From Sedimenticola sp. (GTDB lineage: Bacteria > Pseudomonadota > Gammaproteobacteria > Chromatiales > Chromatiaceae), in contig JALVEB010000038.1 in NCBI GenBank assembly GCA_027008705.1, positions 1 to 41,286 of the forward strand: a DNA stretch of 41,286 nucleotides. The letters are read 5' to 3'. This document shows, piece after piece, positions 13,745 to 31,262 of the stretch. How positions within the stretch are numbered: the first letter of the stretch is position 1; each line of letters starts with the position of its first letter. A model generated the notes under the pieces. That model was not told the DNA's origin and searched no databases. It worked only from the letters and a program-made list of their open reading frames with translations. Both the position numbers and the translations under genes were made by a program.

Positions 13745-13908
13745 TATACTCGTCGCTCATGAATTTTCGGATTTTCGAGAGCGTTCCTCGTGCCCGTGGG
13801 CTAGGCGCGGAAACGAGTCATAGCCCATTCTATGGCGAGTTTCCGCAACAACGCCCACGGGTGCGAGGGGCGGTCGCAGTGGCCGAAAATTCATGGGCGA
13901 CGAGTATA
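13745..13908 (+). repeat. 164-bp foldback MITE-like element, copy A
   Basis: tatactcgtcgctcatgaattttcgg...ccgaaaattcatgggcgacgagtata; about 10 differences by hand count from the copy at 31099-31262. Confidence 0.9.
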
Positions 13909-20239: not shown

Positions 20240-20640
20240 AGCCCGCCGACCACCATGTCGCGGTATTGGGCGCCAGCCCCAAGCCGGCGCGTTACGCCAA
20301 TCAGGCGGTGCGCTTGTTGAAGGCGCAGGGCTACCCGGTTACGCCGCTGCACCCACGCTTCGAACGGATCGAAGATTTGCCGGTCACGCACGCGCTGGCC
20401 GACATCGAGCGGCCGGTGGATACCCTGACGCTATATGTAGGCCCGGCCGGACTCGAACCCTTGCAGGACGACATCGTCGCGTTGCGCCCCGGGCGCGTGA
20501 TCTTCAACCCCGGCAGCGAGAGCCGCGCGTTGCAACAGCGGCTCGACGCCGCCGGCATCCCGTGGCAGCAGGCTTGTACCCTGGTACTGCTGAAGACCGG
20601 CGTCTTCCTCGCCGACATCCCGCCTCCCGATGCCGGATGA
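20236..20640 (+). CDS. CoA-binding domain protein (YccU-like)
   Basis: HHVAVLGASPKPARYANQAVRLLKAQGYPVTPLHPR...VIFNPGSES. Confidence 0.85.
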   Translation: MKPADHHVAVLGASPKPARYANQAVRLLKAQGYPVTPLHPRFERIEDLPVTHALADIERPVDTLTLYVGPAGLEPLQDDIVALRPGRVIFNPGSESRALQQRLDAAGIPWQQACTLVLLKTGVFLADIPPPDAG

Positions 20641-21131
20641 GCCGCTATCGACCGCCACCGGCGCGCAAATCGCCATACATCACCGCCGTCGGATTCGCCG
20701 TGTTACAAGGCGAATCGCGCTCCCTGTGGAAGCGCCGGCGCGAGGTGGTCGCCGCGCTCTCCGCCGCCGCGGCCGAGGGCGATCGCTCTGAGAACGCCGA
20801 ATACATCTATCGCAAACAACAGCTCCGCGGGCTGGACCGGCGCATCCGCTACCTGGAAAAACGCCTGGGCGAGCTGAACGTGGTCGAGCATCCTCCCGAG
20901 GATCGCGAGCGCGTCTACTTTGGTGCCTGGGTTACGCTGGAAGACGAGAACGGCCAGGAGCAGCGTCTGCGCATCGTCGGGGCTGACGAATTCGATCCGG
21001 AGCGCAACTGGATCAGCATCGATGCCCCCCTCGCGCGCGCCCTGCTGAAACGCGCCCGCGACGACGAGGTAGAGGTACGCACGCCGGTCGGTCCGCGACG
21101 CTACTGGATCGTCACGATCGACTATGAGTAG
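20637..21131 (+). CDS. greB: Transcription elongation factor GreB
   Basis: AAAAEGDRSENAEYIYRKQQLRGLDRRIRYLEKRL...VYFGAWVTLEDENG...RIVGADEFD...SIDAPLARALLKR. Confidence 0.9.
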   Translation: MSRYRPPPARKSPYITAVGFAVLQGESRSLWKRRREVVAALSAAAAEGDRSENAEYIYRKQQLRGLDRRIRYLEKRLGELNVVEHPPEDRERVYFGAWVTLEDENGQEQRLRIVGADEFDPERNWISIDAPLARALLKRARDDEVEVRTPVGPRRYWIVTIDYE

Positions 21132-21249
21132 GATTCCGGGTGACGCCCCGTTCCTTTTGGAAATGTTATGACTGCGGGTGGTAATCATTGTGTTATTGCT
21201 CAAACGTTACGGGTAGTAGAGAACGATAAATGAACGTAGGTGATCGGCT

Positions 21250-22578
21250 ATGCTAAAACGCATAAAGATTATGGGTTATAAGTCCCTGAAGGATATCCAG
21301 GTGGAGCTGGTGCCTCTTTCGGTTCTGTTTGGCCCAAACGGCGCTGGGAAAAGCAATTTTCTGGATGCGTTGCAATTGCTTTCCAAGATCGCGGTCAGCC
21401 GAACCCTGAAAGAAGCTTTTGATCCACCTTACCGGGGCAAGCCCCTGGAGTCGTTCTCATTTCCTCCCAGTGGTTTGGAAGGCTTGTTGGATTCAGAGTC
21501 CAGGCGCTTCAGTATAGAAGTTGATGTCGAGCTTTCGCCAGCTGTTGTCGAGCATGTGAACCGCCAGATTCGTGAGATGAGAGGAGGCATGCCGGGAGAT
21601 GGGCCTTCGGATACTTTGAAAGAGAAATCAAAAAAAATCGCAACAGTCCGAGAAAGAAATCTCCGTTACCGTATCGAGATAGAGATATTGCCGAAGAAGA
21701 GTGGCCTTCTGCGTGTTGCCGATGAATATCTGGTAGCGTTGAATACCAAGGGTGAGCCGACAGGCAAGAGGAGACCCTTTCTAGAGCGGATGGGAGACAA
21801 GATCCATCTGAGAATGGAGGGTCAGGCTCATCCCACTTATCATGAACGATATCTTGATCATAGCATCCTTTCGTTGCCCAATTATCCACCCCATTATCCT
21901 CATTTGGTGGCGATGCGGAGAGAGCTGGAAAGTTGGTTCTTTTTTTATTTCGAGCCCAGGGAGAGGATGCGGTCTCCCAACCCTGTTAAAGAGGTTCGAC
22001 ATGTCGGTCTTATGGGTGAGGAGCTGGCTGCTTTTTTGAATACCTTAAATGCCATTGATCCCCGCCAATTTAAAGCAGTTGAAAAAGCGCTGCATACCAT
22101 CCTGCCTAATGTCGATGGACTGGAAGTCGAAGTAAATAATTTGGGTGAGGTTGAGTTAAAAGTAAAGGAGAATGGAATTCTTGTCCCCGCCCGGGTGCTG
22201 TCCGAAGGAACCTTACGGGTGCTTGGCCTGTTAGCACTGTCTGGCGCCAAGGATCAGCCCTCTCTGGTTGGTTTCGAGGAGCCGGAAAACGGTATCCATC
22301 CCCGCAGGCTCCAGCTTGTAGCAGAGTTGTTCAAAACTCGTGCTGGGATGGGAGAAACCCAGTACATCATTACTACCCACTCTCCGATCCTGCCCGACCT
22401 CATGCCTGATGAATCATTGTTTGTTTGTAAGAAGGTTGGAGGCGAGACTCGTATTGAATCATTCAAAACATGGGGCGCTTTAGGTCGTCGGGCGGATATA
22501 GATCTTTCCTTGATGGAAGAGGATGAAAATGAACTGACGGTTTCCGAGCGGATCCTGCGGGGCGATTTCGATGCATAG
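21250..22578 (+). CDS. AAA (AAA_15/AAA_21, SMC/OLD-like) ATPase
   Basis: GPNGAGKSNFLDAL Walker A; VLSEGTLRVLGLLAL signature; SLVGFEEPENGIHP Walker B; IITTHSPILPD H-loop. Confidence 0.9.
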   Translation: MLKRIKIMGYKSLKDIQVELVPLSVLFGPNGAGKSNFLDALQLLSKIAVSRTLKEAFDPPYRGKPLESFSFPPSGLEGLLDSESRRFSIEVDVELSPAVVEHVNRQIREMRGGMPGDGPSDTLKEKSKKIATVRERNLRYRIEIEILPKKSGLLRVADEYLVALNTKGEPTGKRRPFLERMGDKIHLRMEGQAHPTYHERYLDHSILSLPNYPPHYPHLVAMRRELESWFFFYFEPRERMRSPNPVKEVRHVGLMGEELAAFLNTLNAIDPRQFKAVEKALHTILPNVDGLEVEVNNLGEVELKVKENGILVPARVLSEGTLRVLGLLALSGAKDQPSLVGFEEPENGIHPRRLQLVAELFKTRAGMGETQYIITTHSPILPDLMPDESLFVCKKVGGETRIESFKTWGALGRRADIDLSLMEEDENELTVSERILRGDFDA

Positions 22579-23161
22579 TATCGTGCTTTTCGTGGAAGAT
22601 TATGCGCATAAGGAATTTCTTGCATGCTTGTTGCGGAGGCTGGCAAAAGAGCACGATGTCGATATTGGTGATCTGGTCTGGCTCAATACTCGCAGGGGGC
22701 ATGGGGCTGTAATCAAGGAGTTAAGGCAATTTTTGCGCGACTTGCAACGTGGGCGTGCTGATTCCTACGATCTCATCGTAGTTGCCACGGACGCCAACTG
22801 CAAGGGGTTCAATCATCGTGTAAAGGAGATTATGGATGTGACAAGGAATGTTCCAATCCCGGTTGTCTGCGCTGTGCCCGATCCGCACATTGAACGATGG
22901 TTGCTTCTAGATTCAGCGGCTTTTAAGGAGGTGTTCGGGCGCGGCTGCCATGCCCCAGACCAGAAATGCGAGCGCCATCGCTATAAGAAGGCGTTGATTG
23001 ATGCTATCCGTGATGCCGGCGTGACCCCAAGTCTCGGTGGTGTTGAATTTTCCACCGATCTTGTGGATGTGATGGATCTACAGCGGGCGGCCAGGGTCGA
23101 CGGTTCGTTCCACCGATTGTTGGATAACATTAATGAAGTCTTTTCTGAATGGAAGCGATAA
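22571..23161 (+). CDS. TOPRIM/DUF4276-like protein partnered with the ATPase
   Basis: FVEDYAHKEFL (motif-1 Glu), DLIVVATDANCKG (acidic motif 2), PDPHIERWLLLD; start overlaps ATPase stop by 8 nt. Confidence 0.7.
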   Translation: MHSIVLFVEDYAHKEFLACLLRRLAKEHDVDIGDLVWLNTRRGHGAVIKELRQFLRDLQRGRADSYDLIVVATDANCKGFNHRVKEIMDVTRNVPIPVVCAVPDPHIERWLLLDSAAFKEVFGRGCHAPDQKCERHRYKKALIDAIRDAGVTPSLGGVEFSTDLVDVMDLQRAARVDGSFHRLLDNINEVFSEWKR

Positions 23162-23197
23162 TTCCTTTCGAAGGTCTATCAGGTTTTGATTGGTTTC

Positions 23198-23275
23198 TAT
23201 TGCCCATGAATTTTCGGTTTTCCGAGGCCGTTCCTGGCGTCCTCGAGCGTTTTTCGAAAATTCGTCTTCGTCCCA
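23198..23275. repeat. Degenerate short derivative of the foldback element
   Basis: ttctattgcccatgaattttcggttttccgaggccgttcctggcg...ttttcgaaaattcgtcttcgtccc. Confidence 0.6.
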
Positions 23276-23402
23276 GTTATGTGTCAAGATCCGGCCGGTG
23301 GCGTCAATGCGACAGCGAAGCGGCTTCATTCCGCTGCTGTGGACACTGATCATTTCTGCTGTGCGATGCCAGCAGGGTTCGAAGTATCCCGGTGCGGCGT
23401 GG

Positions 23403-23560
23403 TATACTCGTCGCCCATGGTTTTCCGAGGCCGTTCCTCGCGCCGGTGGGCCAGGCATGGAAACGAGTCATCGCCTTTTCAGACATGGTGAGTTTCCGCA
23501 ATGATGCCCATGGGTGTGAGGGACGGTCGCAGTAGCCGAAAATCATGGGCGACGAGTATA
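23403..23560 (+). repeat. About 158-bp foldback MITE-like element, copy B (diverged)
   Basis: tatactcgtcgcccatggttttccgaggccgttcctcg...gagggacggtcgcagtagccgaaaatcatgggcgacgagtata. Confidence 0.88.
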
Positions 23561-23651
23561 TTAAGGCGGAGTAGAAGCCTGCGGAGGACGGATCTTGGTG
23601 TTCGCCAGCGGGTTCGTTTCCGGTGATTGCAACGTTATAGAGATTCAGAAT

Positions 23652-23840
23652 ATGACCGCCTCCTCAGCGAAGACCCTCGATCAGCGGGAGGTCGAGATCA
23701 CGCGTGACCAGTTGCCGCTGTGTTGTCCGCCGTTGGATGTCGATGTCTACGGTTTGCATCCCCGCGTCTGGCTGGCCTTCGGACGCGACGGCAAGGCGAC
23801 CTGTCCCTACTGCGGGACCGATTACCTGCTGAAGGACTGA
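23652..23840 (+). CDS. Zinc-finger domain protein (zf-CHCC type)
   Basis: 62 aa ending GLHPRVWLAFGRDGKATCPYCGTDYLLKD. Confidence 0.85.
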   Translation: MTASSAKTLDQREVEITRDQLPLCCPPLDVDVYGLHPRVWLAFGRDGKATCPYCGTDYLLKD

Positions 23841-24850
23841 TGTCGCGGGTGCTTGTCGTCGGTCCGTCGTGGGTCGGCGACATGGTGATGGCGCAGAGCT
23901 TGTTCAAGGTGTTGCGCGCGCGTCGTCCGGGGGTGACCATCGATGTGCTTGCGCCGGGCTGGAGCCTGCCGTTGCTCGAGCGCATGCCGGAGGTCGCGCG
24001 CGGGTTGACGATGGCCCTCGGTCATGGCGAGCTTGGGCTGCTTCGGCGCTATCGCCTCGGTCGCTCGTTGCGTGCCGCCGGCTATGAGCAGGCGATCTTG
24101 CTGCCGAACTCGCTGAAATCCGCGCTCGCGCCGTTCTGGGCGCGCATCCCGCGTCGTACCGGTTGGCTTGGCGAGCAGCGTTACGGTCTGCTCAACGATA
24201 TCCGCCGTCTCGATCCGAAACGCCTGACGATGACGGTGCAGCGCTTCGTCGCGCTGGCCGGCGAGCGCGACGACGAACCGCCGGCGGAGATTCCGCCGCC
24301 AGCGCTGCGGGTCGACGCCGAGGCGGTGGCGCGCGCGCGCGCGCGCCATGGTCTGGACGCGGATGGGCCGCTGTTGGCGCTGTGTCCGGGCGCCGAGTAT
24401 GGGCCGGCGAAGCGTTGGCCGGAAGCCCACTATGCGGAGCTGGCGCGCGCTTATCTCGGGCGCGGCTGGCGGGTTGCGGCGTTCGGGTCGAAGAAGGATC
24501 AGGCGGTCGGCGCGGCGATCGCCGCCGCCGCGCCGGGTTGTCTCGATCTGTGTGGCCGTACCACGTTGGCGGAAGCCATCGACCTGCTTTCCATCGCCAG
24601 CGCCGTGGTCAGCAACGATTCCGGCTTGATGCATGTCGCCGCCGCCTTGCAACGCCCGCTGGTCGCGCTCTACGGCTCTTCCGATCCGGCGTTCACGCCG
24701 CCATTGAATCAGGCCCACCGTATTGCCACGTTGGGTTTGCCGTGTAGCCCCTGTTTCCAGCGGGAATGCCCGTTTGGCCATCTCGATTGCCTGGCGAAGC
24801 TGCAACCGGCGCGCGTCGAGGCCTTGCTCGAAGAGCTGCTGGCGGCATGA
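23840..24850 (+). CDS. waaF: ADP-heptose--LPS heptosyltransferase II
   Basis: MSRVLVVGPSWVGDMVMAQSLFKVLRARRP; GAEYGPAKRWPEAHYAELA; NDSGLMHVAAAL. Confidence 0.94.
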   Translation: MSRVLVVGPSWVGDMVMAQSLFKVLRARRPGVTIDVLAPGWSLPLLERMPEVARGLTMALGHGELGLLRRYRLGRSLRAAGYEQAILLPNSLKSALAPFWARIPRRTGWLGEQRYGLLNDIRRLDPKRLTMTVQRFVALAGERDDEPPAEIPPPALRVDAEAVARARARHGLDADGPLLALCPGAEYGPAKRWPEAHYAELARAYLGRGWRVAAFGSKKDQAVGAAIAAAAPGCLDLCGRTTLAEAIDLLSIASAVVSNDSGLMHVAAALQRPLVALYGSSDPAFTPPLNQAHRIATLGLPCSPCFQRECPFGHLDCLAKLQPARVEALLEELLAA

Positions 24851-31068: not shown

Positions 31069-31098
31069 GGTGGCGATCCGGGGCAAAGGACGCCATTA

Positions 31099-31262
31099 TA
31101 TACTCGGCGTCCATGAATTTTCGGCCACTGCGACCGTCCCTCGCACCCGTGGGCGTCGTTGCGGAAACTCGCCATGGAATGGGCTATGACTCGTTTCCGC
31201 GCCTGGCCCACGGGCGCGAGGAACGGTCTCGAAAAACCGAAAATTCATGGGCGACGAGTATA
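31099..31262 (-). repeat. 164-bp foldback MITE-like element, copy C (opposite orientation to A)
   Basis: tatactcggcgtccatgaattttcgg...ccgaaaattcatgggcgacgagtata; reverse complement aligns without gaps to 13745-13908. Confidence 0.9.

Follow-up and report, generated by a model that had tools for sequence, protein, structure and literature searches.

A two-gene cassette, made up of an OLD/ABC-type ATPase gene and a gene for a DUF4276 protein, is carried by a 41,286-nucleotide stretch of Sedimenticola sp. DNA (contig JALVEB010000038.1, forward strand; hereafter the window). With a probability of roughly 60%, we take this pair to be a stand-alone, horizontally acquired candidate defence cassette resembling HEC-01, in which the ATPase would act as a sensor and its partner as a nuclease effector. 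The defence reading is based on the matches of the two proteins to the HEC-01A and HEC-01B models, their fixed adjacency, the company of Hma genes, a patchy distribution, the mixing of phyla on the tree, a low GC content, the structural comparisons and the literature. Several points speak against it, namely a modest TOPRIM match, an active site with DxN and His, the location of most copies outside defence islands, a fixed chromosomal place in some clades and the lack of relatives in phages, plasmids and viral contigs. The pair represents a broad, well-conserved subfamily of a candidate defence pair that has been little explored by experiment, and its proposed role is directly testable.

Layout and composition of the gene pair

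In the window, the pair lies between greB on one side and a zf-CHCC/heptosyltransferase (waaF) block on the other, the gene order given by an earlier sequence-only reading. Its elements are as follows.

21250..22578, + strand: OLD/ABC-type ATPase gene, 442 aa, HEC-01A-like, AAA_21/AAA_15 (ORF call and profile matches)
22571..23161, + strand: DUF4276 TOPRIM-like putative nuclease gene, 196 aa, HEC-01B-like (ORF call and profile matches)
22571..22578, + strand: 8-nt overlap ATGCATAG joining the ATPase and partner genes (putative translational coupling)

The overlap of 8 nt and the AT-rich character of the pair, both noticed in that reading, are borne out. Indeed, the GC content of the pair is 49.9% vs. 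about 67.2% (66-70%) in the flanks, and the third-position GC is 51-55% in the pair vs. 79-80% in greB and waaF.

About 85,000 species genomes were scanned, which yielded 137 relatives of the partner; 80 loci were kept for analysis, and conserved residues were counted on 66 homologues. An ATPase relative, mostly 50-72% identical to the window ATPase, is located upstream of the partner in all 80 retained loci, and the 8-nt overlap (from the ATG or GTG of the partner to the stop codon of the ATPase) is found again in 66 of them, with 16 phylum-level groups represented overall. Such a pairing is not due to chance. Moreover, the constancy of the pair and of its overlap across phyla argues for coupled translation and for a complex between the two proteins, which we infer from the sequences. 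An exception to the overlap is seen at L059:4803-5899, where a transposase-like ORF (DDE type by eye) is inserted between the ATPase and the partner. A search of Rfam with positions 20600-24000 of the window gave no match, and scans for promoters and terminators gave no excess over shuffled sequences.

A MITE-like element of 158-165 bp, bounded by near-perfect terminal inverted repeats (TATACTCGTCGCCCATG...CATGGGCGACGAGTATA), is present in the window at 23403-23560, 13745-13908 and 31091-31262. About 40 copies, 78-85% identical, are spread across the genome, and the element has no Rfam match. The idea that the pair is cargo of the nearby repeat was rejected because this repeat is dispersed across the genome and its nearby copy lies entirely downstream of the pair.

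The ATPase

The motifs of the ATPase, described as complete in the sequence-only reading, are all present and nearly invariant in the 66 homologues.

21331..21357, + strand: Walker A GPNGAGKSN, residues 28-36
22198..22212, + strand: ABC signature LSEGT, residues 317-321
22264..22281, + strand: Walker B LVGFEE, residues 339-344 (VGFEEPE)
22372..22383, + strand: H-loop TTHS, residues 375-378

A C-terminal tail, SERxLRGDFDA, is also strongly conserved in these homologues. The protein matches the Pfam families AAA_21 (E 2.5e-30) and AAA_15, its best PDB match by sequence is the OLD nuclease 6p74 (E 6.9e-16), and it carries no fused TOPRIM domain. Its structural model (pLDDT 87) resembles the heads of SMC/Rad50 proteins (Z up to 23) and PtuA. 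All the features of an OLD/ABC ATPase are therefore found: Walker A, LSxG signature, Walker B with its Glu, H-loop and ABC head fold. The earlier label of AAA ATPase thus holds as far as an ATPase with all its motifs is concerned, but the protein is of the OLD/SMC-type ABC class and not an AAA+ protein in the strict sense.

Family, predicted fold and putative active site of the partner

The partner reaches the Pfam DUF4276 family (PF14103) exactly at the gathering cut-off (30.2 bits vs. 30.2, residues 8-187), and comparison of its profile with that of canonical DUF4276 members using hhalign gives a probability of 97.7% (E 1.9e-12). Its proposed likeness to DUF4276 proteins is thus confirmed. 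The segments FVEDYAHKEFL, VVATDANCKG and DPHIERWLLLD, already singled out by eye, are among the most conserved of the family.

In the TOPRIM layout, a Glu follows strand 1 and a DxD motif follows strand 3. The model of the partner (pLDDT 95) shows the order beta-alpha-beta-alpha-beta-alpha-beta, strand 1 being followed by E9 and strand 3 by D74. VIA matches the model to PH0156 (Z 10.8). For the C-terminal region of OLD (6nk8), the VIA Z is 8.1 with an rmsd of 4.1 over 154 aligned residues, a value on a par with that of lumazine synthases (Z 7.9). The TOPRIM-like beta/alpha fold is deduced from the topology, the positions of the motifs and a modest similarity to the Toprim region of OLD; because of this tie, it has support but falls short of proof. 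The earlier assignment of a TOPRIM partner is thus qualified: these three points are its basis, and one acid of the DxD is an Asn. A Foldseek search of the PDB returned nothing below E 0.001; the likeness to lumazine synthase, which appeared there among weak Rossmann-like matches, was set aside as evidence. Profile searches of PDB sequences (profiles A2 and A5) gave designed or unrelated proteins only. AriB is not on the VIA list, which was not counted against a relation.

The putative active site comprises three conserved segments.

22595..22600, + strand: E9-D10 after strand 1 (TOPRIM Glu position), invariant (66/66)
22790..22801, + strand: D74-A-N76-C77 after strand 3 (DxD position), first residue Asp in 66/66, second Asn in 65/66
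22886..22894, + strand: H106-I-E108 (ExE in canonical DUF4276 proteins), H106 and E108 each in 66/66

D10, R109, W110, D114 and K139 are invariant as well in the 66 sequences. The catalytic Glu of TOPRIM domains is therefore represented by E9, but the place of the DxD is occupied by D74-x-N76. Since a short gap interrupts the hhalign path at this very place, the second Asp may have been deleted rather than substituted. L121 and three of the four copies of genome G085 lack both Cys77 and Cys133, which all other sequences keep; as three of the four losses are in one genome, at least two events are involved.

With DxN and a His in place of a canonical Glu, catalysis is not assured. The partner could then be a pseudo-enzyme, a TOPRIM-like protein that regulates or binds a substrate without catalysis. 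The near-fixation of N76 and H106 agrees with this idea, all the more as the canonical DUF4276 proteins compared here mostly have E, DxD and ExE. However, the invariance of E9, D10, D74 and E108 and the conservation of H106, N76 and C77, which show no drift, suggest that the site is altered yet kept under selection; another DUF4276 protein (L132) also varies around the DxD place. We regard a non-catalytic partner as quite unlikely. The fixed variation of the active site sets the subfamily apart from AriB-type and canonical DUF4276 effectors. A more speculative proposal, to which we give little weight, goes further: the partner would define a distinct subclass of TOPRIM effectors whose active site is rebuilt (E-D / D-x-N-C / H-x-E, with joint loss of Cys77 and Cys133 in the four sequences where either is missing) and whose chemistry or target differs from that of AriB or OLD, the ATPase-effector pair would be an autonomous sensor in many little-studied phyla, and tandem arrays such as that of G085 would diversify its specificity.

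Distribution and mobility

The 80 loci are distributed among Pseudomonadota, Thermodesulfobacteriota, Chloroflexota, Poribacteria, Latescibacterota, Acidobacteriota, Planctomycetota and other phyla; cultured carriers include Desulfobulbus elongatus and Azospirillum halopraeferens. Closer to the window, the partner is rare, with 2 carriers among 55 relatives and 2 among 369 genomes of the class, the window's own genome being counted each time. The other carrier among the 55 relatives (G023) has an internal stop codon in the partner gene, and this copy looks degenerate. A congener with a 99% complete genome (G002) has no partner. It keeps the left flank (a rapZ-like gene, a tlpA-like gene, a CoA-binding gene and greB), and a selD-like gene then follows greB instead. 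Stable vertical inheritance in all relatives, which would have spoken against a mobile module, is thus not seen at this locus, even if some other clades keep the pair at its position. No relatives of the partner were detected in the collections of phages, plasmids and viral contigs.

In a tree built from the concatenated pair, the phylum label has to change 23 times (minimum 15; mean after shuffling 40). Mixed-phylum groups on starred branches include Desulfobulbus with Tepidimonas and a proteobacterium, as well as Gemmatimonadota with Latescibacterota, and the pair moves laterally between phyla. Poribacteria and Caldilineaceae form their own clades, with recurring chromosomal neighbours. Taken together, the mixed groups and the clades with a fixed place show that transfer and long retention both occur. 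The GC content of the pair is below that of its flanks in 73 of 79 loci (mean -5 points), and the difference of -17 points in the window exceeds all of them. Fixed pairing, GC contrast and phylum mixing uphold the view of a mobile two-gene candidate module made up of an ATPase and a DUF4276 protein.

A housekeeping or chromosome-maintenance function, with a role in repair or in the cell cycle of the kind reported for the archaeal OLD-family ATPase Cran1, has to be weighed here. The synteny-stable retention in Caldilineaceae and Poribacteria and the similarity of the ATPase fold to Rad50/SMC heads would fit such a function, and roles outside defence are possible for OLD-family ATPases (PMC12796447). 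In contrast, the very patchy distribution, the phylum mixing, the tandem and degenerate copies, the AT-rich composition and the occurrence inside restriction-like operons do not favour it, and we hold this explanation to be very unlikely.

Tandem copies were also observed. In a poribacterial contig (L092:2634-6600), two copies of the pair follow each other, with partners 43% and 51% identical to that of the window. In G085 (L040:7620-13947 and L041:1-2470), an array of at least four ATPase-partner pairs is found beside an HNH gene and a C5-MTase-like gene. The ATPase copies of this array are about 95% identical at the N-terminus and 18-45% identical in a segment in the middle; mosaic structure is seen in copies 1 and 3 (90-100% identity over part), and the partners are mutually 43-53% identical. 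Judged from these alignments, the array has a homogenised core and a diversified segment.

Association with Hma and BREX-related loci

Hma-type helicase and/or methylase genes are located within 6 kb of the pair in 9 of the 80 loci. The Hma name was given by PADLOC (PMC8565338), and the system is the one that Rakesh and Krishnan 2026 (PMC12839542) describe as BREX-related and centred on DUF499. The best preserved Hma locus containing the pair is that of Tepidimonas (L051), where the genes for helicase, ATPase, partner and DUF1156 methylase overlap one another head to tail, followed by that of a DUF499 ATPase; PADLOC scores there are 650, 430 and 422 bits for HmaA, HmaB and HmaC, respectively. 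Short fragments similar to an Hma helicase (62%; L047:4558-4701) and to an Hma methylase (81%; L055:4347-4563), directly upstream of pairs that otherwise stand alone, suggest that an Hma operon once surrounding these pairs has decayed. In a set of 80 proteins encoded immediately beside the pair, HmaA and HmaB (5 each, raw count) are the sole recurrent defence families. Restriction-modification genes occur there in ones and twos (MjaI restriction enzyme, N6 MTase), the remainder belonging to diverse metabolism, and a visible defence island is missing around most copies, that of the window included. Thus, one type of pair exists both within Hma operons and alone. An Hma locus shared with the pair (L054:10012-11831) also contains a further ATPase (PDC-M07A-like, 233 bits) and a 187-aa partner, for which no PADLOC or NCBIfam model match was found.

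These observations raise the possibility that the pair is an accessory effector orphaned from an Hma/BREX-related system, working solely as a backup layer that would monitor that system, the window copy being a remnant or keeping a residual function. The nine loci with nearby Hma genes, the fragments at L047 and L055 and the internal stop codon of the G023 copy are consistent with this explanation, as is the published model in which BREX and DUF499-centred (Hma) systems are backed up by TOPRIM-linked OLD-ABC pairs as effectors (PMC12839542). However, most of the 80 loci have no nearby Hma genes, and their pairs are intact and strongly conserved all the same. Furthermore, no Hma remnant was detected beside the window pair, where tblastn matches were at chance level only. 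This explanation appears rather unlikely.

Proposed mechanism

If the pair is the stand-alone defence cassette that we favour, the two proteins would form a complex in which the ATPase is present as a head-domain dimer. The ATPase would sense an infection cue and hold or position the partner. Sensing and the ATP cycle would then release or activate the partner, by analogy with PARIS. The partner may be a Mg/Mn-dependent nuclease centred on E9, D74, H106 and E108, cutting host or phage nucleic acid, with tRNA as a plausible target, as for AriB of PARIS. Phage growth would be stopped, possibly by abortive infection. We infer the sensor role of the ATPase and the nuclease-effector role of the partner by analogy with such systems.

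Comparison with known systems

The closest counterpart is HEC-01 (Hma-embedded candidate 1). The HEC series of PADLOC consists of Hma-embedded candidates, several of which have demonstrated antiviral activity (PMC12988326); our literature search found nothing stated on HEC-01 itself, the matches to "HEC-01" being unrelated, and the DUF4276 name had no match. The two-gene architecture is the same, the window proteins match both models, and relatives are found inside Hma operons. The ATPase matches the HEC-01A model PDLC04184 (E 3.3e-56, 189 bits) and the partner weakly matches the HEC-01B model PDLC04196 (E 1.1e-7, 192 of 196 residues); another HEC-01B model, PDLC04194, is matched by 53 of 66 partner homologues at E<=0.001. 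Differences are that the window partner scores 30 bits vs. 96 for a clear HEC-01B protein of its own genome, that it has DxN where DxD is expected and that the window copy stands alone. Embedding in Hma operons is thus true for the family (9 of 80 loci, with complete HmaA/B/C in L051) but not for this copy. The second ATPase + DUF4276 pair of the same genome (L162:5851-7629, contig 3 of G000) scores 309 and 96 bits with the HEC-01 models, and its partner has an acidic DED motif at the DxD place.

Gene pairs of this class, located in operons of the same type (DUF499, N6-MTase and SNF2 helicase), are described as TOPRIM-linked OLD-ABC backup effectors of BREX and related systems (PMC12839542), but the DUF4276 name is not used there and the window copy is outside such an operon. 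The MAD3-MAD4 pair of the methylation-associated defence system (MADS) is made up of a homologous ATPase and partner. The window ATPase matches MADS3 with an E of 2e-42, and this model is matched by 66 of 66 ATPases, the mad4 model by 8 of 66 partners. However, the window proteins score far below the NCBIfam equivalog cut-offs (145.9 bits for a cut-off of 420, and 15.1 for a cut-off of 160), and the surroundings of the pair show no visible MADS context. The ATPase fold is shared with PtuA of Septu and retrons (VIA Z about 20), whose profile matches 66 of 66 ATPases, but the partner of PtuA is PtuB and not a DUF4276 protein. In Gabija, GajA is an ATPase-TOPRIM fusion accompanied by the helicase GajB, whereas the window genes are separate and have no adjoining helicase.

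PARIS (AriA and AriB; "class 4 OLD") has, like the window, separate genes for an OLD/ABC ATPase and for a TOPRIM-type effector, the TOPRIM nature of the window partner being a prediction from its model. In PARIS, AriA senses and an AriB dimer, a TOPRIM tRNA nuclease, is released and cuts tRNA (PMC12409363); the sensor-effector logic is probably the same in the window pair. The window partner, however, matches no AriB model, and the ATPase resembles AriA at the AAA_21 level only. At E<=1, the partner has matches to seven PADLOC families, and AriB, RloB and AbiLii are not among them, in line with the earlier judgement that it is neither AriB nor RloB. The analogy with PARIS is hence a likeness of mechanism, not membership. 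Of the parallel with ATPase-TOPRIM defence pairs drawn in the sequence-only reading, the PARIS-like two-gene logic stands, but the architecture is already present in PADLOC as HEC-01. The window pair is not AriB, RloB or Gabija and does not represent a system of a new type; we place it in the catalogued candidate HEC-01, as a divergent and stand-alone member.
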